From Streptomyces chromofuscus (GTDB taxonomy: Bacteria; Actinomycetota; Actinomycetes; Streptomycetales; Streptomycetaceae): a DNA stretch of 64,000 nt. This document shows positions 26,120-64,000 of this stretch, piece after piece (within the stretch, counting starts at the first letter, position 1; each line of letters starts with the position of its first letter). A program made the translations under genes and the position numbers. The stretch spans positions 2,542,001 to 2,606,000 of the forward strand of contig NZ_CP063374.1 of NCBI RefSeq assembly GCF_015160875.1, in the 5' to 3' direction. The notes beneath the pieces were generated by a model that was not told the origin of the DNA, made no database searches, and saw only the letters and a list, made by a program, of their open reading frames with translations.

Positions 26120-26141
26120 CCGGCGGCGCGGCGGACGCGGG

Positions 26142-26770
26142 ATGCGCGTGCCGGACCCGCGTCCGCGGCGCGAGCCGAACGGCAGGCACCGGCGCCTGAC
26201 GCCCGGTGAGCGAGGCCCCGTGCGTGCAGCCGCAAGGCGGAAGGGGAAGCCGGCGCGGGGCACCGGCGGCGACGCGGCGGGTACGCATGCCGGACCCGCG
26301 TCCACGGCGCGAGCCGAACGGCAGGCGCCGGGGCCTGACGCCCGGTGAGCGAGGCCCCGTGCGTGCAGCCGCAAGGCGGAAGGGGAAGCCGGCGCGGGGC
26401 ACCGGCGGCGACGCGGCGGGTACGCATGCCGGACCCGCGTCCCCGGCGCGAGCCGAACGGCAGGCACCGGCGCCTGACGCCCGGTGAGCGGGGCCCCGTG
26501 CGTGCAGCCGCAAGGCGGAAGGGGAAGCCGGCGCGGGGCACCGGCGGCGACGCGGCGGGTACGCATGCCGGACCCGCGTCCACGGCGCGAGCCGAACGGC
26601 AGGCGCCGGGGCCTGACGCCCGGTGAGCGAGGCCCCGTGCGTGCAGCCGCAAGGCGGAAGGGGAAGCCGGCGCGGGGCACCGGCGGCGACGCGGCGGGTA
26701 CGCATGCCGGACCCGCGTCCCCGGCGCGAGCCGAACGGCAGGCGCCGGGGCCTGACCTCCGGATCAGGCC
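26142..26770. repeat. 139-bp tandem repeat array, about 4.5 copies with 278-bp higher-order pattern
   Basis: The anchor ATGCCGGACCC recurs at 26287, 26426, 26565 and 26704 (exact period 139), with a diverged first copy from 26142. Small variants alternate between neighbouring copies (CGTCCACGG against CGTCCCCGG; CAGGCACCGGCGCC against CAGGCGCCGGGGCC), so copies two apart match best. Each unit can form hairpins such as CGGGGCCT-N15-AGGCCCCG. 139 is not divisible by 3 and frames change in every copy, so it is not coding. A decayed copy continues to about 26880. Confidence 0.95.
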
Positions 26771-27995: not shown

Positions 27996-28028
27996 CAACA
28001 TTTCGAACGTGTGACGAAATTTCGAACA
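27996..28028 (+). promoter_or_regulatory. tandem operator for a repressor, probably the IclR at 62.5 kb
   Basis: Two copies of an ATTTCGAAC-containing site start at 27996 and 28015, 19 bp apart, exactly over and just after the predicted transcription start. The second matches CGAAATnnCGAACA completely. The same motif recurs at 30307 and twice at 63382-63418 upstream of iclR. The position fits repression. Confidence 0.65.
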
Positions 28029-28056: not shown

Positions 28057-29223
28057 GTGCGCATCACCGGAATCAGCACGCACGTGGTCGGGACGCCGTG
28101 GCGCAACCTGACGTACGTCCAGGTGCACACCGACGAGGGGATCACTGGAGTCGGGGAGACCCGGATGCTGGGCCACACCGACGCCCTCCTCGGCTACCTG
28201 AAGGAGGCCGAGGCCAACCACATTCTCGGTTCCGACCCGTTCGCCGTGGAAGACCTGGTCCGCCGCATGAAGTACGGCGACTACGGGCGCGCCGGCGAGA
28301 TCGTGATGTCGGGCATCGCGGTGGTCGAGATGGCCTGCTGGGACATCAAGGGCAAGGCGCTCGGCGTGCCGGTGTGGCAGCTGCTGGGCGGCAGGGTCAC
28401 CGACAAGGTCAAGGCGTACGCCAACGGCTGGTACACCACGGAGCGCACGCCCGAGGCGTATCACAAGGCCGCCCAGGAGGTCATGGCCCGCGGCTACCGG
28501 GCGCTGAAGATCGACCCCTTCGGCACCGGTCACTTCGAGCTGGACCACCGGCAGACCCTGTACGCCGTCTCCCTCATCGAGGCGGTCCGCGACGCCATCG
28601 GCCCCGAGGCCGAGCTGATGCTGGAGATGCACGGCCGCTTCTCCCCCGCCACCGCCGTCCGGCTCGCCCACGAGCTGGCGCCGTTCAAGCCGGCCTGGCT
28701 GGAGGAGCCGGTCCCGCCGGAGAACCTCAAGGCGCTGAAGAAGGTCGCCGAGAAGGTGGACATGCCGGTCGCCACCGGTGAGCGCATCCACGACCGGATC
28801 GAGTTCCGCGAGCTGTTCGAGGATCAGTCCGTCGACATCATCCAGCCGGACGTCGGCCACATCGGCGGCATCTGGGAGACGCGCAAGCTGGCCGCCACCG
28901 CCGAGACCCACTACATGCTGGTCGCGCCGCACAACGTGGGCGGCCCCGTGCTGACCGCCGCCTCGCTCCAGGTCGGCTTCACCTCCCCCAACTTCAAGAT
29001 CCTCGAACACTTCAACGACTTCGCCGACGCGGAGATCAAGAAGGTCGTCAGGGGCGCGCCCCAGGTGAACCCCGAGGACGGGTGCTTCCACCTGTCCGAC
29101 GCCCCCGGCCTCGGCGTCGAGCTGGACACCGACGCCGCCGCCGAGTTCCCGCAGCAGCAGGCCCGCTTCGACCTGTGGGCCGAGGGCTGGGAGCAGCGCA
29201 AGCCGAAGGCGACGCAGCCGTGA
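28057..29223 (+). CDS. enolase-superfamily sugar-acid dehydratase (galactonate dehydratase-like)
   Basis: 388 residues of the mandelate racemase/muconate lactonising group. An N-terminal capping domain (1-120) is followed by a TIM barrel. Candidate metal ligands are Glu190 (MLEMHG), Glu216 (WLEEP) and Glu242 (TGER), with His192 and His292 (APHN) as acid and base. As I recall it, E. coli galactonate dehydratase uses Asp183/Glu209/Glu235 with His185/His285; every position here is offset by exactly seven, with Glu replacing Asp183. This supports dehydration of a six-carbon or related aldonate to a 2-keto-3-deoxy acid. GTG 28057 begins an operon whose next gene overlaps by GTGA. The exact substrate is unknown. 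Confidence 0.83.
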   Translation: MRITGISTHVVGTPWRNLTYVQVHTDEGITGVGETRMLGHTDALLGYLKEAEANHILGSDPFAVEDLVRRMKYGDYGRAGEIVMSGIAVVEMACWDIKGKALGVPVWQLLGGRVTDKVKAYANGWYTTERTPEAYHKAAQEVMARGYRALKIDPFGTGHFELDHRQTLYAVSLIEAVRDAIGPEAELMLEMHGRFSPATAVRLAHELAPFKPAWLEEPVPPENLKALKKVAEKVDMPVATGERIHDRIEFRELFEDQSVDIIQPDVGHIGGIWETRKLAATAETHYMLVAPHNVGGPVLTAASLQVGFTSPNFKILEHFNDFADAEIKKVVRGAPQVNPEDGCFHLSDAPGLGVELDTDAAAEFPQQQARFDLWAEGWEQRKPKATQP

Positions 29224-30224
29224 GCACCGCCGTCGTCGTCGACGCCCCCGGCGAGCACCGGCTCGTCGCGCACACGCCCCGCCCGCCCGGCCCCGGCGAG
29301 GCGCAGGTCCGGGTGCACGCGGTCGGCATCTGCGGCAGCGACCGCGAGGTCTACCAGGGCAACCGGCCCGAGGGGTACGTCCGTTATCCCCTCACCCCCG
29401 GCCACGAGTGGTCCGGGACGGTGGCGGAGGCCGGCCCCGGGGTGCCCGCCTCACTGGTCGGCCGCAAGGTCGTCGGCGAGGGCTTCCGCAACTGCCAGGT
29501 GTGCGACCGCTGCCACGCGGGCGACACCACGCTGTGCACGGACGGGTACGAGGAGACCGGGTTCACCCAGCCCGGCGCGATGGCCGCCACCCTCACCCTT
29601 CCGGCCCGTCTGCTGCACGTCCTCCCGGACGACGCCGACCTGACGGCGGCGGCGCTGCTGGAGCCCGCCGCCTGCGTCGCCGCAGCGGCCCTCAAGGCCG
29701 GCGCGAAGCCGGGCGAGCGCGTGGCCGTGGTGGGCACCGGCACCCTCGGCATGTTCGCCGTGCAGTTCCTGCGGGCCACCTCCCCGGCCGAACTGCTGGT
29801 CGTCGGCACCCGCCCCGACCGCGCGGCCATGGCGCGGGGCTTCGGCGCCACCGACTTCCGCACCAAGGACCAGGAGCTGCCCGGCGGCTTCGACGTGGTG
29901 ATCGAGACGGCCGGGTCCGCCGACGCCGCCCGGGGCGCCGCCGCGCTGCTGCGGCGCGGCGGGCGGCTGGTGCTGACGGGCATTCCGGCGCCGGGCGCCG
30001 ACGGGCTGGACCCGACGGACCTGGTCGTCCGGCAGCTGGAGGTGCACACCGTCTTCGGGGCGCCGCCCGACGCCTGGGCGCACGCGGTGCGGGTGTTCGG
30101 CGCCGGGCTGCTCGATCCGGTGCCGATGGTCACCCACGAGCTGCCGCTGACCGAGTTCTCGCAGGCCATCGAGCTGGTCGGGGCCGGTGATCCGAAGGTC
30201 GGCAAGGTGCTGCTCCGCCCCTAG
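29220..30224 (+). CDS. zinc-dependent alcohol/sugar dehydrogenase (MDR family)
   Basis: 334 residues. Catalytic-zinc residues are Cys38 (GICGSD) and His62-Glu63 (GHEW). The structural-zinc lobe NCQVCDRCHAGDTTLC contributes Cys92, Cys95, Cys98 and Cys106. A Rossmann motif VVGTGTLGMFAVQ covers about residues 169-181. The GTG start overlaps the dehydratase stop (GTGA), so the pair is translationally coupled. In a route with dehydratase and lactonase it would oxidise the sugar or a sugar acid; it could equally act on a downstream intermediate. A symmetric hairpin follows. Confidence 0.9.
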   Translation: MSTAVVVDAPGEHRLVAHTPRPPGPGEAQVRVHAVGICGSDREVYQGNRPEGYVRYPLTPGHEWSGTVAEAGPGVPASLVGRKVVGEGFRNCQVCDRCHAGDTTLCTDGYEETGFTQPGAMAATLTLPARLLHVLPDDADLTAAALLEPAACVAAAALKAGAKPGERVAVVGTGTLGMFAVQFLRATSPAELLVVGTRPDRAAMARGFGATDFRTKDQELPGGFDVVIETAGSADAARGAAALLRRGGRLVLTGIPAPGADGLDPTDLVVRQLEVHTVFGAPPDAWAHAVRVFGAGLLDPVPMVTHELPLTEFSQAIELVGAGDPKVGKVLLRP

Positions 30225-30227
30225 TCG

Positions 30228-30270
30228 TACGCCGGTACGGGGGCGACCTGACGGCCGCCGTACCGGCGTA
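30228..30270. terminator. hairpin after the dehydrogenase gene
   Basis: Perfect 13-bp arms 30228-30240 and 30258-30270 with a 17-nt loop. There is no T tract. It is a plausible terminator or attenuator before the next transcription unit. Confidence 0.65.
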
Positions 30271-30306
30271 CCCGGCCTTCGCGTCCCCACCGCCGCGAAC
30301 CTCGTC

Positions 30307-30320
30307 CGAAATACCGAACA
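30307..30320 (+). promoter_or_regulatory. IclR-type operator copy before the TIM-barrel gene
   Basis: CGAAATACCGAACA matches all 12 fixed bases of the motif found at 28015. It lies 14 bp upstream of the GTG at 30334. Confidence 0.55.
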
Positions 30321-30333
30321 CTAAGGACAGCTT

Positions 30334-31302
30334 GTGACCGACGCTTCCGCCACGGCAGCCCGCAGACCCGGTGAGCAGGCGCTCACCGCCTTGGGCCTGG
30401 GCGCGCCCGCCCTCGACCCCGCCGACGCCTCACCGCACACCTTCCCCGGCGGTGGCCGCTGGCGCACCGAGATCCCCTCGTGCGAGGGTCCCGAGGCGCT
30501 GGCGGTCGTCCTCAAGGAGGCCTCGCGCCTCGACGTGCCGATCCACCGGATCAGCCAGGGCAGCGGGGTGTGGATGCTGACCGACGCCGAGATCACCGAG
30601 ATGGTGGAGGCGACCGGCGAACGTGACATCGAACTCTGCCTGTTCACCGGCCCGCGCGGCACCTGGGACATCGGCGCCTCGACGCGTACCGACTCCCGGG
30701 GCGCCGGGCTGCGGGCGCGCGGCCACGACGCCGTCGCCGGCTGTGTCGAGGACGCCGTACGGGCCACGGAGCTGGGCGTGAAGTGCCTGCTCGTCGCCGA
30801 CGAGGGCGTGCTGTGGACGCTGCACCGGGCGCGGGCGCGGGGCATCCTCCCGGCCGACACCACGCTGAAGGTGTCGGCGCTCATCGGGCCGGTGAACCCG
30901 GCGAGTTACGCGGTGTACGAGCACCTCGGCGCCGACTCGGTCAACGTGCCCAGCGATCTGACGCTCGATCACCTGACGGAGATCCGCCGCGTGTCCGCCG
31001 CTCCCATGGACATGTACATCGAGGCCCCCGACGACCTCGGGGGTTATGTGCGGATGTACGAGGTCGCCGAGCTGATCCGGCGCGGCGCACCGCTCTATCT
31101 GAAGTTCGGCCTGTCCAAGGCACCCGGGATCTACCCGTACGGGCACCACCTGCGGGAGCTGACCCTGGCCACCGCCAGGGAACGGGTGCGGCGCGGCCGG
31201 CTCGCCCTCGATCTGCTGGTCCGCCACGGAGCGGAGGGCGACATGGCGCCGCTCGGCTCCCGGCTCCCGGGCGAACTGCGCCGATTCGACACCTCGTCAT
31301 AA
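30334..31302 (+). CDS. uncharacterised TIM-barrel-like protein in the sugar locus (U32-like)
   Basis: 322 residues, no signal peptide. Alternating beta-strand and helix elements suggest a TIM barrel: [91 protein letters not shown] and [10 protein letters not shown]. The general look recalls the U32 peptidase-like family, but I am not certain of membership. It lies between the dehydratase/dehydrogenase pair and the sugar importer, with a copy of the shared operator in front, so a catabolic enzyme such as an aldolase or isomerase is a fair inference. GTG 30334 follows AAGGACAG. Confidence 0.72.
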
Positions 31303-31399
31303 CGTTCCGGAAAACCGGCTTCTCACAACAAGACACAGTCGCGCACAATCCCACACACCCTGTCTCGGTTCCTCCCCGCACACATCAAGGATGATGATC

Positions 31400-32512
31400 A
31401 TGCGTAACCGCAGAGCCGCACTCTCCGCCATATCCGCAGCCGCCTGTCTCGCCCTCACCCTCACCGCCTGCGGCCAGAGCGGCGAGGGCGGCAGCAAGGA
31501 GGACTCGGGCAGCTCCGAGGGCGCCACCATCGGCATCGCGATGCCGACCAAGTCCTCCGAGCGGTGGATCGCCGACGGCAACAACGTCGTCAAGGACCTG
31601 GAGTCCAAGGGCTACAAGACCAAGCTCGTGTACGGCGAGGACGACCCCGACCAGCAGGTCTCCCAGGTCGAGAACCTGATCACGCAGGGCGTCAAGGCGC
31701 TGATCGTCGCGGCCATCGACAACAAGTCGATGAACAACGTCCTGCAGCAGGCCAAGGACGCCAACATCCCGGTGATCAGCTACGACCGCCTGATCCTCGG
31801 CACGGAGAACGTCGACTACTACGCCTCCTTCGACAACGAGAAGGTCGGCGAGCTCCAGGGCACCTACATCGTCGACAAGCTCGGCCTGAAGGACGGCAGC
31901 AAGAAGGGCCCCTTCAACATCGAGTTGTTCGCCGGCTCCAACGACGACAACAACACCCGCTACTTCTTCCAGGGCGCGATGAACGTCCTGCAGCCCTACA
32001 TCGACAAGAAGCAGCTGGTGGTCCGCTCCGGGCAGACCGAGCTGACCCAGGTCACCACCCTGCGCTGGGACGGCGGCACCGCGCAGAAGCGCATGGACGA
32101 CATCCTGACCTCGGCGTACAAGTCCGAGCGGGTGGACGCCGTGCTCTCGCCGTACGACGGCATCTCCATCGGCATCCTGTCCGCGCTGAAGTCCGACGAC
32201 TACGGCTCCAAGAGCAAGCCGCTGCCGATCGTCACCGGCCAGGACGCCGAGGTCGCCTCGGTGAAGTCGATCATCGCCGACGAGCAGTCGATGACCGTCT
32301 ACAAGGACACCCGCGAGCTCGCCAAGGTGGCCTCGAACATGGTGGACGCGCTGCTCAACGACAAGAAGCCCGAGGTCAACGACGAGAAGACCTACGACAA
32401 CGGCTCGAAGGTCGTCCCGGCCTACCTGCTCGAGCCGGTCAGCGTCGACAAGACCAACTACAAGGAGACGGTGGTCGACTCCGGATACATCAAGGAAAGC
32501 GACCTCAACTAA
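31400..32512 (+). CDS. chvE: ChvE-type multiple-sugar ABC transporter substrate-binding lipoprotein
   Basis: 370-residue periplasmic-binding-protein fold, lipid-anchored through Cys24 in LTLTACGQ. The mature part begins [14 protein letters not shown] and has the [19 protein letters not shown] and VISYDRLI strands typical of xylose/arabinose/galactose binders of the ChvE type. ATG 31400 is preferred over the ATGs at 31391 and 31394 because AAGGA ends 8 nt before it. It is followed by ATPase and permease genes in the same operon. The sugar is not determined by sequence; ChvE relatives bind L-arabinose, D-galactose, D-glucose or D-xylose. Confidence 0.9.
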
Positions 32513-32544
32513 CCGCCGGCTCACTCTGATTGGAAGGCACGACC

Positions 32545-34095
32545 ATGGCGGGACCCGTCCTGGAAATGCGCTCGATCGTCAAGACCTTTCCCGGCGTCAA
32601 GGCGCTGTCGGACGTCACGCTGACCGTCCGGCAGGGCGAGGTCCACGCCATCTGCGGGGAGAACGGCGCCGGCAAGTCGACCCTGATGAAGGTCCTCTCC
32701 GGCGTCCACCCGCACGGCACCTACCAGGGGGACATCCTCTTCGAGGGAGAGGTCTGCGAGTTCAAGGACATCCGCGCGAGCGAGCAGCGCGGCATCGTCA
32801 TCATCCACCAGGAGCTGGCGCTGTCGCCGTACCTCTCCCTCGCGGAGAACATCTTCCTCGGCAACGAGCACGCCAAGGGTGGTTTCATCGACTGGCGGCA
32901 GACCCTGCAGCACGCCACCGAGCTGCTGCGGCGGGTCGGTCTGTCCGACCACCCGGACACCCGCGTCGCCGACATCGGCGTGGGCAAGCAGCAGCTCGTG
33001 GAGATCGCGAAGGCCCTGTCGAAGAAGGTGAAGCTGCTCATCCTCGACGAGCCGACCGCGGCCCTGAACGACGAGGACAGCGGCAAACTCCTGGATCTGA
33101 TCCTGGAGTTGAAGAAGCAGGGCATCACCTCGATCATCATCTCCCACAAGCTCAACGAGATCCGCAAGGTCGCCGACTCGGTGACGATCCTGCGCGACGG
33201 GCGCACCATCGAGACGCTCGATGTGAAGGCCCCGGAGACCACCGAGGACCGGATCATCAGCGGCATGGTCGGCCGCGACCTGGAGCACCGCTTCCCGGAG
33301 CGCACCCCGCACGAGCCCGAGAAGGGCGCGGCTCCCGCGCTGGAGATCCGCAACTGGACGGTGCACCACCCGATCGACCAGCAGCGCAAGGTGGTCGACG
33401 ACGTGTCACTGTCCGTGCGGCGCGGGGAGATCGTGGGGATCGCGGGCCTGATGGGCGCCGGCCGCACCGAGCTCGCGATGAGCGTCTTCGGGCGGACGTA
33501 CGGCCGTTACCACGGCGGTACGGTCCTCAAGGACGGCAGGGAGATCCGTACCAAGACCGTCCCCGAGGCGGTCAAGAACGGCATCGCGTACGTCACCGAG
33601 GACCGCAAGCACTACGGCCTCAATCTCATCGACACCATCAACCGGAACATCTCGCTCAGCGCGCTGGGCAAGGTGGCCAACCGTGGTGTGGTCGACGAGC
33701 ACGAGGAACGGCAGGTCGCCGAGGGCTTCCGCAAGTCCATGAACATCAAGGCGCCGACCGTCTTCGAGCCGGTGGGCAAGCTGTCCGGTGGCAACCAGCA
33801 GAAGGTCGTCCTCAGCAAGTGGATCTTCGCGGGTCCGGACGTGCTCGTCCTGGACGAGCCGACGCGCGGCATCGACGTCGGCGCCAAGTACGAGATCTAC
33901 ACGGTCATCGACCAACTGGCCGCCCAGGGCAAGGCGGTCGTCTTCATCTCCTCCGAGCTGCCGGAGCTGCTCGGCATGTGCGACCGCATCTACACGATGG
34001 CCGCGGGCCGGCTGACCGGTGAGTTCTCGCGGGTCGAGGCCTCACAGGAATCGCTGATGCGTCAGATGACGAAGGACAAAGAGGTAACGCGATGA
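32545..34095 (+). CDS. gguA: sugar ABC transporter ATPase with two nucleotide-binding domains (MmsA/GguA type)
   Basis: 516 residues. The first ABC domain has Walker [10 protein letters not shown] (38-46), a degenerate signature region and Walker [12 protein letters not shown]. The second has the diverged P-loop GLMGAGRTE and signature LSGGNQQKV with DEPTRGID. The two-domain layout with a weak second P-loop is usual for monosaccharide importers. ATG 32545 has GGAAGG 7 nt upstream. Its stop overlaps the permease start by ATGA. Confidence 0.94.
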
Positions 34096-35336
34096 GCACG
34101 GATGTGACCGCCAAGACCCCGGCCCCCGCGCCGCCGGGCAAGGGCGGAGCGGGCGCGGGTGACGGTCTGCTCCAGATGGTGCTGGACGGGATGCGCCGCA
34201 ACATGCGGCAGTACGGCATGCTGATCGCCCTCGGCCTGATCGTGGTGCTGTTCGCCGTGTGGACCGACGGCGACCTGCTGCTGCCGCGCAACGTCTCCAA
34301 CCTGGTGCTGCAGAACAGCTACATCCTGATCCTGGCGATCGGCATGATGCTGGTCATCATCGCGGGCCACATCGACCTGTCGGTCGGCTCGTTGACGGCG
34401 TTCGTCGGCTCGATGGCGGCCGTGTTCATGGTGAAGAACGACATGCCATGGCCGCTCGCGGTGATCCTCTGCCTCGCCATGGGCGCGGTGGCCGGGGCCG
34501 CGCAAGGCTTCTTCATCGCGTACGGCGGCATACCGTCGTTCATCGTGACCCTCGCGGGCATGCTGATCTTCCGCGGTCTGACCGAGATCTTCCTCGAGGG
34601 CCAGACCCTCGGCCCGTTCCCGGAGGGCCTGCAGAAGGTCGCCAACGGCTTCCTGCCCGAGGTCGGCCCCAACACCAACTACCACAACCTCACCCTGCTG
34701 CTCGGCTTCGCGATGATCGCGTTCGTGGTCTTCCAGGAGTTCCGCGACCGCCGCCGGCAGCAGGAGTTCCACCTCGACGTCCCGCCCTTCAACCTCTTCC
34801 TGCTGAAGCTGGTCGCGCTCGGCGCCGCCATCCTCACGCTGACGCTGCTGCTGGCCAGCTACAAGGGCGCCCCGATCGTGCTGCTGATCCTGGGCGTGCT
34901 GCTCGTCGGCTTCGGTTACGTGATGCGCAACGCCATCATCGGCCGGCACATCTACGCCATCGGCGGCAACCTCCCCGCCGCCAAGCTGTCCGGCGTCAAG
35001 GACAAGAAGGTCACCTTCCTGGTCTTCCTGAACATGGGCATGCTTGCGGCCCTGGCGGGTCTGGTCTTCGCCGCCCGCTTCAACGCGGCCTCGCCCAAGG
35101 CCGGCCTCAACTTCGAGCTGGAGGCGATCGCGGCCTCGTTCATCGGCGGTGCGTCGATGAGCGGCGGTGTCGGCACCGTGCTCGGCGCGATCATCGGCGG
35201 TCTGGTCCTGGGCGTGTTGAACAACGGTATGAACCTCGTCGGCATCGGCACCGACTGGCAGCAGGTCATCAAGGGCCTGGTGCTCCTGGCGGCGGTCGGC
35301 TTCGACGTGTGGAACAAGCGCAAGGTCGGTTCATAG
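34092..35336 (+). CDS. gguB: sugar ABC transporter permease (GguB/XylH type)
   Basis: 414 residues with about ten membrane segments in the BPD-transp-2 fold. Typical motifs are [23 protein letters not shown] with HIDLSVGSL, and near the end [22 protein letters not shown]. The ATGA overlap with the ATPase gene couples their synthesis. It is followed by a strong hairpin and then by an aldose epimerase. Confidence 0.94.
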
Positions 35337-35388: not shown

Positions 35389-36534
35389 ATGGACATGAGC
35401 AGACGCACGGTCATCGCCGGAGCCGCCGCCGCGGGCATCACCGCGGCGAGCATCGGCGGCGCGCACGCGACGGGAGGCGGGAAGCCGGTGAAGTCGCTGT
35501 TCGGGAAGCTCGCCGACGGCACCAAGGTGTACAGCTGGGCCCTGGAGAACGGCGGCACCCGGCTGAAGGTCCTCTCCTACGGCGGGATCGTGCAGTCCCT
35601 GGAGATCCCCGACCGGCGCGGGCGCCACGCCAACGTCTCCCTCGGGTTCGACACGATCGAGGACTACGTCGCGAGCAGCCCCTACTTCGGCGCCCTGATC
35701 GGCCGTTACGGCAACCGCATCGGCAACGGCCGCTTCACCTTGGACGGCGAAACCCACCAGCTCTCCGTCAACGACGGCGACAACAGCCTGCACGGCGGCG
35801 CCCAGGGCTTCGACAAGCACGTGTGGGACGTCGAGCCGTTCACCAGGGGCACGGACGTCGGGCTGCACCTGTACTACACGAGCGTCGACGGCGAGATGGG
35901 CTACCCGGGCACGCTGCGGACCAAGGTCACCTACACCCTCACCCGGCACGGCGACTGGCGCGTCGACTACGAGGCCACCACCGACAAGGCCACCGTCGTC
36001 AACCTCACCAGCCACGTCTACTGGAACCTGGCCGGCGAGTCCAGCGGCACGATCTACGACCACGAACTGTCCATCGCCGCCTCCCGCTACACCCCGGTCG
36101 ACGCCGGGCTGATCCCCACGGGCGAACTGGCGCGGGTCGCGGGCACCCCCTTCGACTTCCGCCGGACCAAGACCGTCGGCGAGGACATCCGCGTACCGCA
36201 CCAGCAACTGCTGTACGGCAAGGGCATCGACCACAACTGGGTCCTCGACAAGGGCCTCACCGCACGCCCCGAGCACATCGCCACGCTCCGGGACCCCTCG
36301 TCCGGCCGCACCCTGAGGATCGCGACGACCGAGCCGGGCCTGCAGTTCTACTCCGGCAACTTCCTCGACGGCACCCTCGTCGGCTCCGGCGGCACCGTCT
36401 ACCGGCAGGGCGACGGGCTGTGCCTGGAGACGCAGCACTTCCCGGACTCGCCGAACAAGCCGTCGTTCCCCTCGACCGTGCTGCGTCCGGGGCAGACCTA
36501 CCGCACGACGACGGTCCACTCGTTCAGCGCGTGA
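35389..36534 (+). CDS. Tat-exported aldose 1-epimerase
   Basis: 381 residues. A twin-arginine signal SRRTVIAG (from residue 4) is followed by an alanine-rich stretch ending AHA, so the enzyme is exported folded. The mature part is a complete mutarotase with NDGDNSLHGG, LTSHVYWNL (catalytic His) and LETQHFPDSP (catalytic Glu). Placed after a sugar importer, it probably supplies the anomer the binding protein prefers. It differs from the cytoplasmic paralogue at 2.9 kb. AGGAG precedes the ATG. Confidence 0.92.
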   Translation: MDMSRRTVIAGAAAAGITAASIGGAHATGGGKPVKSLFGKLADGTKVYSWALENGGTRLKVLSYGGIVQSLEIPDRRGRHANVSLGFDTIEDYVASSPYFGALIGRYGNRIGNGRFTLDGETHQLSVNDGDNSLHGGAQGFDKHVWDVEPFTRGTDVGLHLYYTSVDGEMGYPGTLRTKVTYTLTRHGDWRVDYEATTDKATVVNLTSHVYWNLAGESSGTIYDHELSIAASRYTPVDAGLIPTGELARVAGTPFDFRRTKTVGEDIRVPHQQLLYGKGIDHNWVLDKGLTARPEHIATLRDPSSGRTLRIATTEPGLQFYSGNFLDGTLVGSGGTVYRQGDGLCLETQHFPDSPNKPSFPSTVLRPGQTYRTTTVHSFSA

Positions 36535-61631: not shown

Positions 61632-62477
61632 CTACCCCGCGAACGCCGGTTGCGCCAGGCCCTTTCCGGCGTCCCGGACCACCAGCAGCGAGCCCGACAG
61701 CGGCGTCGGCGCCGTCAGGCCGACGCGCGCCGTGGTGATGTACAGGTCCGTCAGGCCGGCGCCGCCGAAGGCGCACGCCGTGGGGCGGGGCACCGGGAGC
61801 GGGAGGACCCGGTCCAGTGCGCCGTCCGGCGTGTAGCGGCGCACCGCGCCTCCGTCCCACAGCGCCACCCACACACAGCCGTCGGCGTCGACCGTGAGGC
61901 CGTCGGGGAAGCCGGCGCCCTCCTCGATCTCCGCCAGGGTGCGGCGGCCGGTCACGCGGCCGTCGGCGTGGTCGAAGACGTCGACGCGGCGGGTCGGGGA
62001 GTCGATGTAGTACATCAGGCGGCCGTCGGGGCTCCAGCCGATGCCGTTGCTCACCGACACGTCGTCCAGGACCACCTCCACCGAACCGTCGGGCGCGACG
62101 CGGGACAGCGTGCCGCCGCCCGGCGCCTCGTCGTAGCGCATGGTGCCCGCCCACAGCGCGCCGTCCGGCGCCACGGCGGCGTCGTTGGCGCGCCGGCCGG
62201 GGACCGGGTCGTGGTGCAGCACGCGGTAGGTGCCGTCCGGGTCCAGCAGGCCCACACCGTCCCGCAGGTTGAGGACCAGGCCGCCGTTCGCGCGGGGCTT
62301 GGCCGCGCCCACGTGCTGGTGCGTGGTGCGGGTCGTGCGCCGACCCGTGGCGGGTTCGTACGTGTGCAGCCGGGAGTTCAGGATGTCGATCCAGATCAGC
62401 CGCCCGGTCGCCGCGTCCCACGTCGGCCCCTCGCCCAGCGCCGCCTCGGCGCGCACCGCCACCTCGAGCGCCGTCAT
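61632..62477 (-). CDS. SMP-30/gluconolactonase family sugar lactonase
   Basis: 281-residue six-bladed beta-propeller that hydrolyses aldonolactones. Calcium-site residues of the family are visible: Glu in LGEGPTWD (about residue 16), Asn in RRANDAAV, Asn in VSNGIGWS and Asp in FPDGLTVDADG. No signal peptide, so cytoplasmic. It overlaps iclR by ATGA and is in the same minus-strand operon. The sugar dehydrogenase and dehydratase that would work with it are at 28-30 kb, linked by shared operator motifs. The lactone could derive from L-arabinose, D-galactose or a similar sugar. Confidence 0.9.
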   Translation of the reverse strand: MTALEVAVRAEAALGEGPTWDAATGRLIWIDILNSRLHTYEPATGRRTTRTTHQHVGAAKPRANGGLVLNLRDGVGLLDPDGTYRVLHHDPVPGRRANDAAVAPDGALWAGTMRYDEAPGGGTLSRVAPDGSVEVVLDDVSVSNGIGWSPDGRLMYYIDSPTRRVDVFDHADGRVTGRRTLAEIEEGAGFPDGLTVDADGCVWVALWDGGAVRRYTPDGALDRVLPLPVPRPTACAFGGAGLTDLYITTARVGLTAPTPLSGSLLVVRDAGKGLAQPAFAG

Positions 62478-63247
62478 GCCGCGCTCCGGTGGCCCAGCCG
62501 CTCGGACAGTTCCGCCGCGCCCTTCGCGGCGAGCTGCTCCAGCTCGGCGCGGCGCTCGTCGCTCCAGCGGATCATGGGAACGGAGATGGAGAGGGCGGCC
62601 ACCACCTGCCCGGTGCGGTCACGGACCGGCGCGGCGACGCAGGAGACGTCCGGGTTGGACTCGCGGCTCTCCACCGCGATGCCCCGCTGCCGGATGCCCG
62701 CGAGCGCCGCGCGCAGGGCCATGGGCTCGGTGATGCTGTTCGGCGTCATCGCGGCCAGCTCCGCGCCGTCGGGGATGCGGGCCGTGAGCTCGGGATCGGG
62801 CAGGGAGGCCAGCAGCATCTTGCCGACGGACGTGCAGTGGGCGGGCAGGCGGCGGCCGGCCGCGGAGACCATGCGCACCGCGTGCGTGGAGTCCACCTTG
62901 GCGATGTAGATGACGTCCGTGCCCTCCAGGATCGCGACGTGCACCGTCTCGTCGCAGGTCTCGGCGACGGACCGGGCGACCTGCTGGCCCTCGGCGGCGA
63001 GGTCCAGCTGCTCGGCGTAGCGGCTGCCGAGCTGGTAGGGGCGCACGCCGAGCCGGTAGCGGCCGGGCTGGCCGGGGACCTGGACGATGTACGACCGGGC
63101 GGCGAGCGTGGTGACCAGCTCGTGCACGGTGGTGCGCGGCAGCTGGAGCTTGCGCACGATGTCGGGGGCGGAGAGCGTGCCGTCCCCGTCGAGGAAGAGC
63201 TCCAGGATGTCGAGAGCCCGGGTCACGGCTGGTACGAGGCGTCCCAC
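62474..63247 (-). CDS. IclR family transcriptional regulator
   Basis: 257 residues. The N-terminal winged helix-turn-helix has AVTRALDILELFLDGDGTLS, then APDIVRKLQLPRTTVHELVT (about 27-46). The C-terminal effector domain has VHVAILEGTDVIYIAKVDS and LPAHCTSVGKMLLASLPD, with CVAAPVRDRTGQVVAALSIS near the end. GTG 63247 is chosen because GGGAGGGG lies about 6 nt upstream and the domain starts at once; the frame stays open further upstream through repeats. It is the first gene of the operon with the lactonase. Motif copies at 63382-63418 suggest autoregulation and control of the 28-36 kb genes. Confidence 0.92.
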   Translation of the reverse strand: MGRLVPAVTRALDILELFLDGDGTLSAPDIVRKLQLPRTTVHELVTTLAARSYIVQVPGQPGRYRLGVRPYQLGSRYAEQLDLAAEGQQVARSVAETCDETVHVAILEGTDVIYIAKVDSTHAVRMVSAAGRRLPAHCTSVGKMLLASLPDPELTARIPDGAELAAMTPNSITEPMALRAALAGIRQRGIAVESRESNPDVSCVAAPVRDRTGQVVAALSISVPMIRWSDERRAELEQLAAKGAAELSERLGHRSAA

Positions 63248-63381: not shown

Positions 63382-63418
63382 TGTTCGAGATTTCAACACG
63401 CGGTCGGAATGGCGAACA
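63382..63418. promoter_or_regulatory. paired IclR-type operators upstream of iclR
   Basis: 63382-63395 read on the minus strand is TGAAATCTCGAACA, and 63405-63418 on the plus strand is CGGAATGGCGAACA. Each matches 11 of 12 fixed bases of CGAAATnnCGAACA, in opposite orientation. They lie 135-171 bp before the iclR start. The interval 63248-63640 holds no other recognisable feature. Confidence 0.6.
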
Positions 63419-63534: not shown

Positions 63535-64000
63535 CGCCGCGGGATGCCCGGCGGATGCTCGCCGCCCGCAGGTCGTCGCGGCGGGTGCGCCGGGCACATA
63601 CCCCGCCGCCGCGCGACATCCCGCACATACCCCGCCGCCGCGCGACATCCCGCGCATGCCCGCCGCACGCGCGACGCCCCGCAGGTCGTCGCGGCGGGTG
63701 CGCCGGGCGCACACCCCGCCGCCGCGCGACATCCCGCACATACCCACCGCACGCGCGACGCCCCGCAGGTCGTCGCGGCGGGTGCGCCGGGCGCACACCC
63801 CGCCGCCGCGCGACATCCCGCACATACCCACCGCACGCGCGACGCCCCGCAGGTCGTCGCGGCGGGTGCGCCGGGCGCACACCCCGCCGCCGCGCGACAT
63901 CCCGCACATACCCACCGCACGCGCGACGCCCCGCAGGTCGTCGCGGCGGTGCGCCGGGCGCACACCCCGCCGCCGCGCGACATCCCGCACATACCCACCG
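63535..64000. repeat. 84-bp tandem repeat array running out of the window
   Basis: The anchor CGACATCCCGC occurs at 63643, 63727, 63811 and 63895 (period 84) and 63978 (period 83, one G lost). A 29-bp sub-repeat lies before the first full unit (63614 to 63643), and a diverged unit begins near 63535. Each unit contains the hairpin GTGCGC-CGG-GCGCAC. 84 is a multiple of 3, so long minus-strand frames exist, but the 83-bp copy breaks them and there is no initiation signal. The array continues past base 64000. Confidence 0.93.

Follow-up and report, generated by a model that had tools for sequence, protein, structure and literature searches.

The gene at the centre of this study, here called U32L for the distant relation of its product to the U32 family, is on the evidence of sequence and gene context a member of a sugar regulon and makes a strong candidate for the enzyme that acts on a 2-keto-3-deoxy acid, the step still missing. 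As its specific function we tentatively put forward, at slightly less than even odds, 2-keto-3-deoxy-L-arabonate (L-KDP) dehydratase of a non-phosphorylative L-arabinose regulon. In the proposed route ChvE-GguAB would import the sugar, taken here as L-arabinose, the zinc dehydrogenase would produce the lactone by oxidation, the SMP-30 lactonase would open its ring and the MR/MLE dehydratase would form L-KDP. U32L, acting in the cytosol and probably via its invariant charged residues, would then remove a second water to give α-ketoglutarate semialdehyde (KGSA), which an aldehyde dehydrogenase would convert to α-ketoglutarate. An IclR protein bound to the shared operator would switch the regulon. 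An importer, a dehydrogenase, a lactonase and a sugar-acid dehydratase are all encoded in the window, by which we mean the whole analysed stretch of 64,000 nucleotides. The earlier note, made from the DNA letters, held that the pathway lacks a 2-keto-3-deoxy-acid aldolase; the gap it pointed to is real, while for the enzyme filling it a 2-keto-3-deoxy-pentonate dehydratase is somewhat likelier than an aldolase, because KGSA dehydrogenase (KGSADH)-like genes lie near some relatives and several features described below point to a pentose.

The source genome is a single contig of 7.48 Mb whose nearest named relatives are Streptomyces. On the plus strand, the genes follow each other in the order dehydratase, zinc dehydrogenase, U32L, ChvE, GguA, GguB and GalM-like epimerase (Table 1), so that U32L stands between the dehydrogenase and the importer as the earlier note had stated; all three importer proteins score above their NCBIfam cut-offs. 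The genes for the IclR regulator and the SMP-30 lactonase are located at the far end of the window from the U32L operon. In the best 80 of 486 candidate loci, with record titles naming Streptomyces in 79 cases and “Actinobacteria bacterium OV320” in one, U32L relatives have 91–97% identity and the order dehydratase-dehydrogenase-U32L is kept in 79, the exception being L098, which starts at U32L. The window also contains two tandem arrays, one at 26137–26756 between a glycosyltransferase-like region and the operon (139-bp unit, 4.5 copies, 96% match) and one at 63629–64000 upstream of the IclR gene and reaching the window end (84-bp unit, 4.4 copies, 98% match).

Table 1 Features of the proposed U32L regulon, with positions in the window
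Feature	Position	Strand	Basis or remark
Operator copy before dehydratase	28004..28027	+	no mismatch
MR/MLE-family sugar-acid dehydratase	28057..29223	+	nearest NCBIfam model galactonate dehydratase, 300.4 bits, below cut-off 311
Zinc-dependent dehydrogenase, probable sugar 1-dehydrogenase (role inferred)	29220..30224	+	family models
Conserved hairpin in the dehydrogenase/U32L gap, invariant loop CCTGAC	30227..30271	+	28-sequence alignment
Operator copy before U32L	30296..30319	+	no mismatch
U32L (gene under study, distant U32-family relative)	30334..31302	+	ORF, GTG start, 322 aa
ChvE sugar-binding lipoprotein	31391..32512	+	NF040907, 540.8 bits, cut-off 460
GguA ATPase	32530..34095	+	NF040905, 879.1 bits, cut-off 810
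GguB permease	34092..35336	+	NF040906, 574.8 bits, cut-off 450
Aldose 1-epimerase (GalM-like)	35389..36534	+	PF01263, E=3.4e-92
SMP-30/gluconolactonase-type lactonase	61632..62477	-	PF08450, E=9e-84
IclR-family regulator, presumed to act on the operator	62474..63247	-	PF01614 and PF09339 above cut-off
Weaker operator copy before IclR regulator	63383..63406	-	2 mismatches

The operator has the common form CGAACNNNNNNCGANATNNCGAAC, a 24-letter pattern with 15 fixed positions. In the entire 7.48-Mb genome it occurs without mismatch only twice, namely before the dehydratase and before U32L, never with one mismatch and nine times with two mismatches. The claim of the earlier note that U32L has its own perfect copy of the regulon motif was thus confirmed. 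The perfect match is partly circular since the pattern was drawn from these sites and a few relatives; the uniqueness and the conservation of the operator are not circular. The flanks of eight of the nine two-mismatch sites, those outside the window, were viewed by eye: six are inside open reading frames, the other two (L188, L190) lie upstream of one at a distance of up to about 110 bp, and none of the eight precedes a recognised sugar gene as far as called reading frames can be judged by eye. Across related loci, sites with at most one mismatch between 250 bp before and 30 bp after the start codon were found before the dehydratase in all 85 loci and before U32L in 83 of 86 (exceptions L040, L125 and L128), the loci being close relatives and the counts non-independent. 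By the same scan no site precedes the dehydrogenase (0/85), the binding protein (0/83), the ATPase (0/82), the permease (0/82) or GalM (0/79). A stricter motif count (80/86 and 46/87) missed sites, and the figures given here come from the 24-letter pattern. Of the 159 sites with no more than one mismatch in the 80 Streptomyces-type loci, 158 are those of the dehydratase or U32L. U32L shares its operator with a sugar-acid dehydratase, as expected of a member of the proposed oxidative L-arabinose regulon.

The regulator and the lactonase are linked to U32L in more distant loci as well. IclR relatives share the stretch with U32L in L159 (81%), L125 (78%), L128 (72%), L123 (66%) and L160 from Thermomicrobium roseum (57%), and SMP-30 relatives do so in L125, L128 and L159; L163 has an SMP-30 protein by Pfam. 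The sites on the IclR side in L184 and L185 have three mismatches. For 9 of the 22 pairs predicted in the hairpin between the dehydrogenase and U32L, one or more sequences differ on both sides and still pair, at a small covariation term of −0.77. The hairpin is possibly a terminator or a processing site for the upstream transcript; a separate operator for U32L would then make sense.

Matches to U32L were found in 124 of the 297 genomes of the family, and a full-length or nearly full-length orthologue in 112. Left out of the orthologue counts were ten genomes with distant matches of 33–42% (G008, G016, G028, G070, G106, G117, G124, G171, G189, G235) and two with fragments (G219, G253). In G253 the U32L-like sequence (L129) lies in three separate pieces and is probably a decayed copy. 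The dehydratase (E≤1e-140) is present in all 112 genomes with U32L, in 111 of them as the true orthologue, and in 113 genomes overall, so that co-occurrence with the dehydratase, which had been proposed as a check on the gene's role, turned out to be very strong. The dehydratase counted for G015 is a 59% homologue encoded far away, and there U32L stands behind its own operator without an adjoining dehydratase; G261 has the dehydratase and no U32L.

In a tree of 43 rows, the window's protein belongs to a sugar-acid clade of 31 rows with a support of 100/99. Outside this clade stand a group whose members mostly lie in NRPS-containing clusters, the divergent L180 and L181 from another family, and a further group made up of an Enterobacter plasmid relative and two genomes of the window's family. 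Within the clade the partner enzymes of U32L are swapped. The adjoining dehydratase is of the MR/MLE type in 18 members (17 labelled in the tree and L138, which is G044) and of the unrelated IlvD/EDD type in five (L112, L164, L174, L178, L179); neither was seen within the available stretch in eight (L111, L123, L162, L163, L172, L176, L177, L182). The IlvD/EDD protein of L174 passes the dihydroxy-acid-dehydratase subfamily model (891 bits, cut-off 539), and its nearest equivalog model is L-arabinonate dehydratase with 857 bits, under the cut-off of 882. Likewise, the dehydrogenase is either zinc-dependent or of the SDR type, the putative lactonase has either the SMP-30 or the MBL fold, and the types of the ABC importers differ as judged by eye. 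That U32L stays while its partners change is expected of an enzyme acting on their common product, a 2-keto-3-deoxy acid.

More distant relatives occur in other settings. In L113–L119, at about 6–7 kb in each, relatives of about 35–40% identity are encoded in biosynthetic-type clusters with several common gene families; in L115, genes for an ATP-grasp protein, a branched-chain aminotransferase and an asparagine synthase accompany one for an adenylation-domain protein that additionally carries a beta-lactamase domain. A 33% relative is located on a plasmid of Enterobacter chuandaensis (L161:8914-9849) near genes whose annotations name an aminotransferase, an NAD(P)-dependent oxidoreductase, iron-containing redox enzymes and a nucleotidyltransferase. 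No relative turned up when viral contigs were scanned.

At E≤1 the only Pfam match of U32L is PF01136 (Peptidase_U32) with 16.9 bits and E=0.0041; since this is under the cut-off of 22.4 bits, we regard U32L as a distant relative of the U32 family and not as a filed member. The same family is matched at E≤0.1 by 25 of the 29 sequences of the U32L alignment (best value 9.5e-10); the relative L166 passes the cut-off with 34.4 bits, and L160 has no match at 1e-5. NCBIfam gave no match at E≤1, and neither PF00701 (DHDPS) nor PF01557 (FAH) was matched in Pfam at E≤1; no sugar-acid aldolase or dehydratase family of Pfam or NCBIfam was matched. The view of the earlier note that this is an enzyme of no nameable sugar aldolase family thus holds for the aldolases, while the distant U32 relation had escaped it. 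Searches of solved structures by sequence, with U32L as well as with the alignment profile, returned matches at chance level only.

The residues invariant throughout the 29 sugar-type sequences include E46, R72, S74, Q75, E100, R143, D156, K179, S181, N188, N204, D208, D226, Y228, E230, R240 and K257, and in a wider set of 18 sequences E46, R72, R143, D156, K179, S181, N188, D208, D226, R240 and K257 are still invariant. No cysteine or histidine is invariant in either set. The AlphaFold model, built from 64 near-identical sequences, is poor (mean pLDDT 52, pTM 0.52), with strands and helices alternating, and too poor to place the two invariant lysines K179 and K257. With this weak model Foldseek retrieved a mix of mostly barrel enzymes, 5d88 (MK0906) at rank 21, which we do not use as proof. 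The TIM-barrel-like pattern described earlier is accordingly backed by the U32 relation and by the order of strands and helices in a low-confidence model, and by nothing beyond these.

The sugar of the regulon is probably L-arabinose, to which neighbouring genes and the distribution of an isomerase point. L173 adjoins araB (776 bits, cut-off 583) and a gene for L-ribulose-5-phosphate 4-epimerase (340 bits, cut-off 251), and L175 adjoins a GH127 beta-L-arabinofuranosidase. In L184 an operator with one mismatch precedes a GH43 gene, divergent from a gene pair with ArfA (721 bits, cut-off 625) as its second member, and in L185 a one-mismatch operator is located directly upstream of the probable start of a gene encoding alpha-L-arabinofuranosidase domains. 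The glycosidases just named were not found nearby in any of the 80 Streptomyces-type loci, whose operator sites are nearly all at the dehydratase or U32L, which limits the glycosidase link to a few lineages. L-arabinose isomerase (PF02610) shows an inverse distribution to U32L: across the whole family it is encoded in 8 of 112 genomes with U32L versus 104 of 185 without, within genus g1 in 8 of 104 versus 16 of 49 (Fisher p=2e-4, phylogeny ignored), and among the 35 g7 genomes in the matches listed in 0 of 5 versus 23 of 30 (p=0.002, phylogeny ignored). In these counts the 12 genomes with distant or fragmentary matches are taken as lacking U32L, though G117 has a sugar-type relative of 42%. 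A control with rhamnose isomerase was uninformative, as the gene was found in 0 of 80 genomes.

Published proteome data also bear on the sugar. In the part available to us, PMC12772271 reports for Streptomyces sp. SirexAA-E a higher abundance on xylose over glucose of SACTE_1895 (galactonate dehydratase, 1.53-fold), SACTE_1896 (dehydrogenase, 1.77-fold), SACTE_1898 (binding protein, 2.67-fold), SACTE_1899 (ATPase, 1.79-fold), SACTE_1900 (permease, 2.34-fold) and SACTE_1901 (alpha-N-arabinofuranosidase, 2.74-fold). From names and order, SACTE_1895–1901 would be the same operon with an arabinofuranosidase at its end. SACTE_1897, by order U32L, is absent from the induced proteins in the available tables of PMC12772271. 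As the carbon sources compared with glucose in the accessible part of that study were xylose, xylobiose and xylan, D-xylose stays a possible sugar. Galactose was dropped as the main sugar and is kept as an alternative because L128 adjoins galT and galK.

KGSADH-like genes, candidates for the next enzyme of a route over KGSA, occur within the cluster or close to it in L128, L184, L185, L186, L163, L172, L173 and L174. The aldehyde dehydrogenase type of L128, L184, L185 and L186 is a putative KGSADH; the L128-type protein has only weak NCBIfam matches, below the cut-off. In L172, L173 and L174 the nearest model is the KGSA dehydrogenase GucD (450–544 bits, under the cut-off of 770), and for the aldehyde dehydrogenase of L162 the nearest model is a different one. 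In L128 and L186 a perfect operator lies in the gap that separates the KGSADH-like gene from the dehydratase, and operators with one mismatch precede the likely start of the KGSADH-like gene in L184 and L185; the scores of the latter (28.6 and 30.1) exceed those of all 40 sampled native sites of the KGSADH-like gene (maximum 20.8). Such neighbours favour a route over KGSA and hence a dehydratase. Among the matches listed, the gene type of L128, L184, L185 and L186 is near the operon in 4 of the 112 genomes with U32L (G018, G029, G110, G257). We had further predicted that in genomes with U32L the common chromosomal KGSADH-like gene would be preceded by the U32L operator. This prediction failed in the 20 genomes inspected: the best operator scores upstream of the gene average 6.9 in 20 genomes with U32L and 14.1 in 20 genomes without. 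If KGSADH has entered the regulon, it has thus done so in some lineages and not in general. A different, related motif is present there in both groups, and a three-mismatch site before the KGSADH-like gene of the source genome was dropped as support. This chromosomal gene has a recurring near-palindromic site of its own resembling GTTCAGNATANCGAAC, seen in the upstream stretches L194–L233 of genomes with and without U32L; at the site in the source genome (G000:C1:1931481-1931504) the divergent gene looks IclR-like by eye.

The known families for the dehydration of 2-keto-3-deoxy-pentonates (KDP) have to be considered alongside U32L. In the accessible part of PMC7374468 all D-KdpDs are annotated as FAH and all L-KdpDs as DHDPS, and according to the available part of PMC6336799 enzymes of the FAH/MhpD type act on L-KDP too. 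The source genome has six DHDPS-family matches, and the family is present in all 24 genomes or records searched, in two of them (G327, G321) within about 10 kb of U32L. With the FAH protein of L174 as query (E≤1e-40), no FAH-type KDP dehydratase was matched in the source genome; at the same threshold this protein has matches in 9 of the 297 genomes, four of them with U32L. FAH-type genes adjoin U32L in 3 of the 31 clade members, namely L163, L172 and L174, which thus already encode a putative KDP dehydratase. A further KDP dehydratase in these loci would appear superfluous, except if it acts on the other isomer. An FAH enzyme for the D isomer and U32L for the L isomer may fit, or U32L may do something else; the activity of FAH-type enzymes on L-KDP described in part in PMC6336799 weakens the explanation by isomers for the three loci.

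These loci are one reason to weigh other functions against the L-KDP dehydratase. An aldolase is the main alternative: it would cleave L-KDP into pyruvate plus glycolaldehyde, or 2-keto-3-deoxygalactonate into pyruvate plus glyceraldehyde, and thereby close the same pathway gap. A putative KDP dehydratase is already encoded in L163, L172 and L174, which speaks for this alternative. Its Schiff-base or metal mechanism could use the invariant K179 and K257 together with the invariant Asp and Glu residues, galactonate dehydratase is the nearest model of the window's dehydratase, and the aminotransferase a few genes from the U32L relatives in the biosynthetic-type clusters of L161 and L115 would fit the synthesis of a hydroxy-keto acid. 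We nevertheless consider this function less likely than a dehydratase, as U32L matches no aldolase family and the KGSADH-like genes next to it in several lineages call for a dehydratase. About as probable as the aldolase, in our judgement, is a role of U32L at another step of the same pathway, such as that of an epimerase, an isomerase or an extra lactonase, with a DHDPS-family enzyme from outside the regulon handling the 2-keto-3-deoxy acid. One of the six DHDPS-family matches in the source genome lies about 8 kb from the KGSADH-like gene, and L174 keeps U32L despite having a dehydrogenase, an L-arabinonate-type dehydratase, an FAH gene and a KGSADH-like gene. However, no operator with up to two mismatches was found near any DHDPS gene of the source genome. 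A lactonase role was dropped; genes of the SMP-30 or MBL-fold type can serve that step, and U32L has no invariant histidine as required for the usual metal lactonases.

The relation to the U32 family, and the public label “U32 family peptidase” on relatives in two further phyla (Thermomicrobium, Enterobacter), could suggest a peptidase or an Fe-S-containing, prephenate-dependent hydroxylase like the characterised U32 proteins. We regard this as highly improbable. According to the available part of PMC10470549, four conserved cysteines coordinate the [4Fe-4S] cluster in UbiU and UbiV, and TrhP needs E162, C170 and C177 as stated in the accessible part of PMC6599085. The lack of invariant cysteines and histidines in the sugar-type and wider sequences argues against both the [4Fe-4S] chemistry of UbiU/UbiV and the TrhP-type cysteines, and the context of the regulon is sugar catabolism. 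A hydroxylase role like that of UbiU, UbiV, RlhA and TrhP was dropped, no alignment column of the 29 or the 18 sequences having an invariant cysteine.

If the preferred assignment as L-KDP dehydratase is correct, its implications would go beyond this operon. U32L is present in nearly four in ten of the sampled family genomes (112/297), so that a major soil genus would handle arabinose, an abundant sugar of plant cell walls, by an unrecognised oxidative route. We also speculate, with more hesitation than for the assignment itself, that U32L represents a third, structurally unrelated class of L-KDP dehydratase and the first sugar-acid lyase of the U32 superfamily, and that the label “U32 peptidase” hides keto-acid lyases which also serve natural-product clusters. 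Among the open-access matches listed, none of the titles and abstract openings ties a U32 protein to sugar acids. The enzyme class would then be one not known for sugar acids, and a misleading annotation as “U32 family peptidase” could be corrected.

Compared with known systems, the proposed pathway resembles the non-phosphorylative L-arabinose (Weimberg-type) pathway in having a dehydrogenase, a lactonase and an aldonate dehydratase and, in some lineages, KGSADH-like neighbours and arabinofuranosidases. It differs in the MR/MLE type of the dehydratase in 18 of the 31 clade members and in the U32-like enzyme that would catalyse the next step. The KDP dehydratases of the DHDPS and FAH families share with U32L the proposed reaction and the place in the pathway, but U32L matches neither family; 2-keto-3-deoxy-sugar-acid aldolases would occupy the same gap, and U32L is without a match to any of their families. 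To the U32 family, comprising UbiU/UbiV, RlhA, TrhP and the structure 5d88, the sequence relation of U32L is detectable and 5d88 is among the Foldseek matches. In contrast to the characterised U32 proteins, U32L has no invariant cysteine, and its setting is operons for sugar acids and not the hydroxylation of RNA or quinones.
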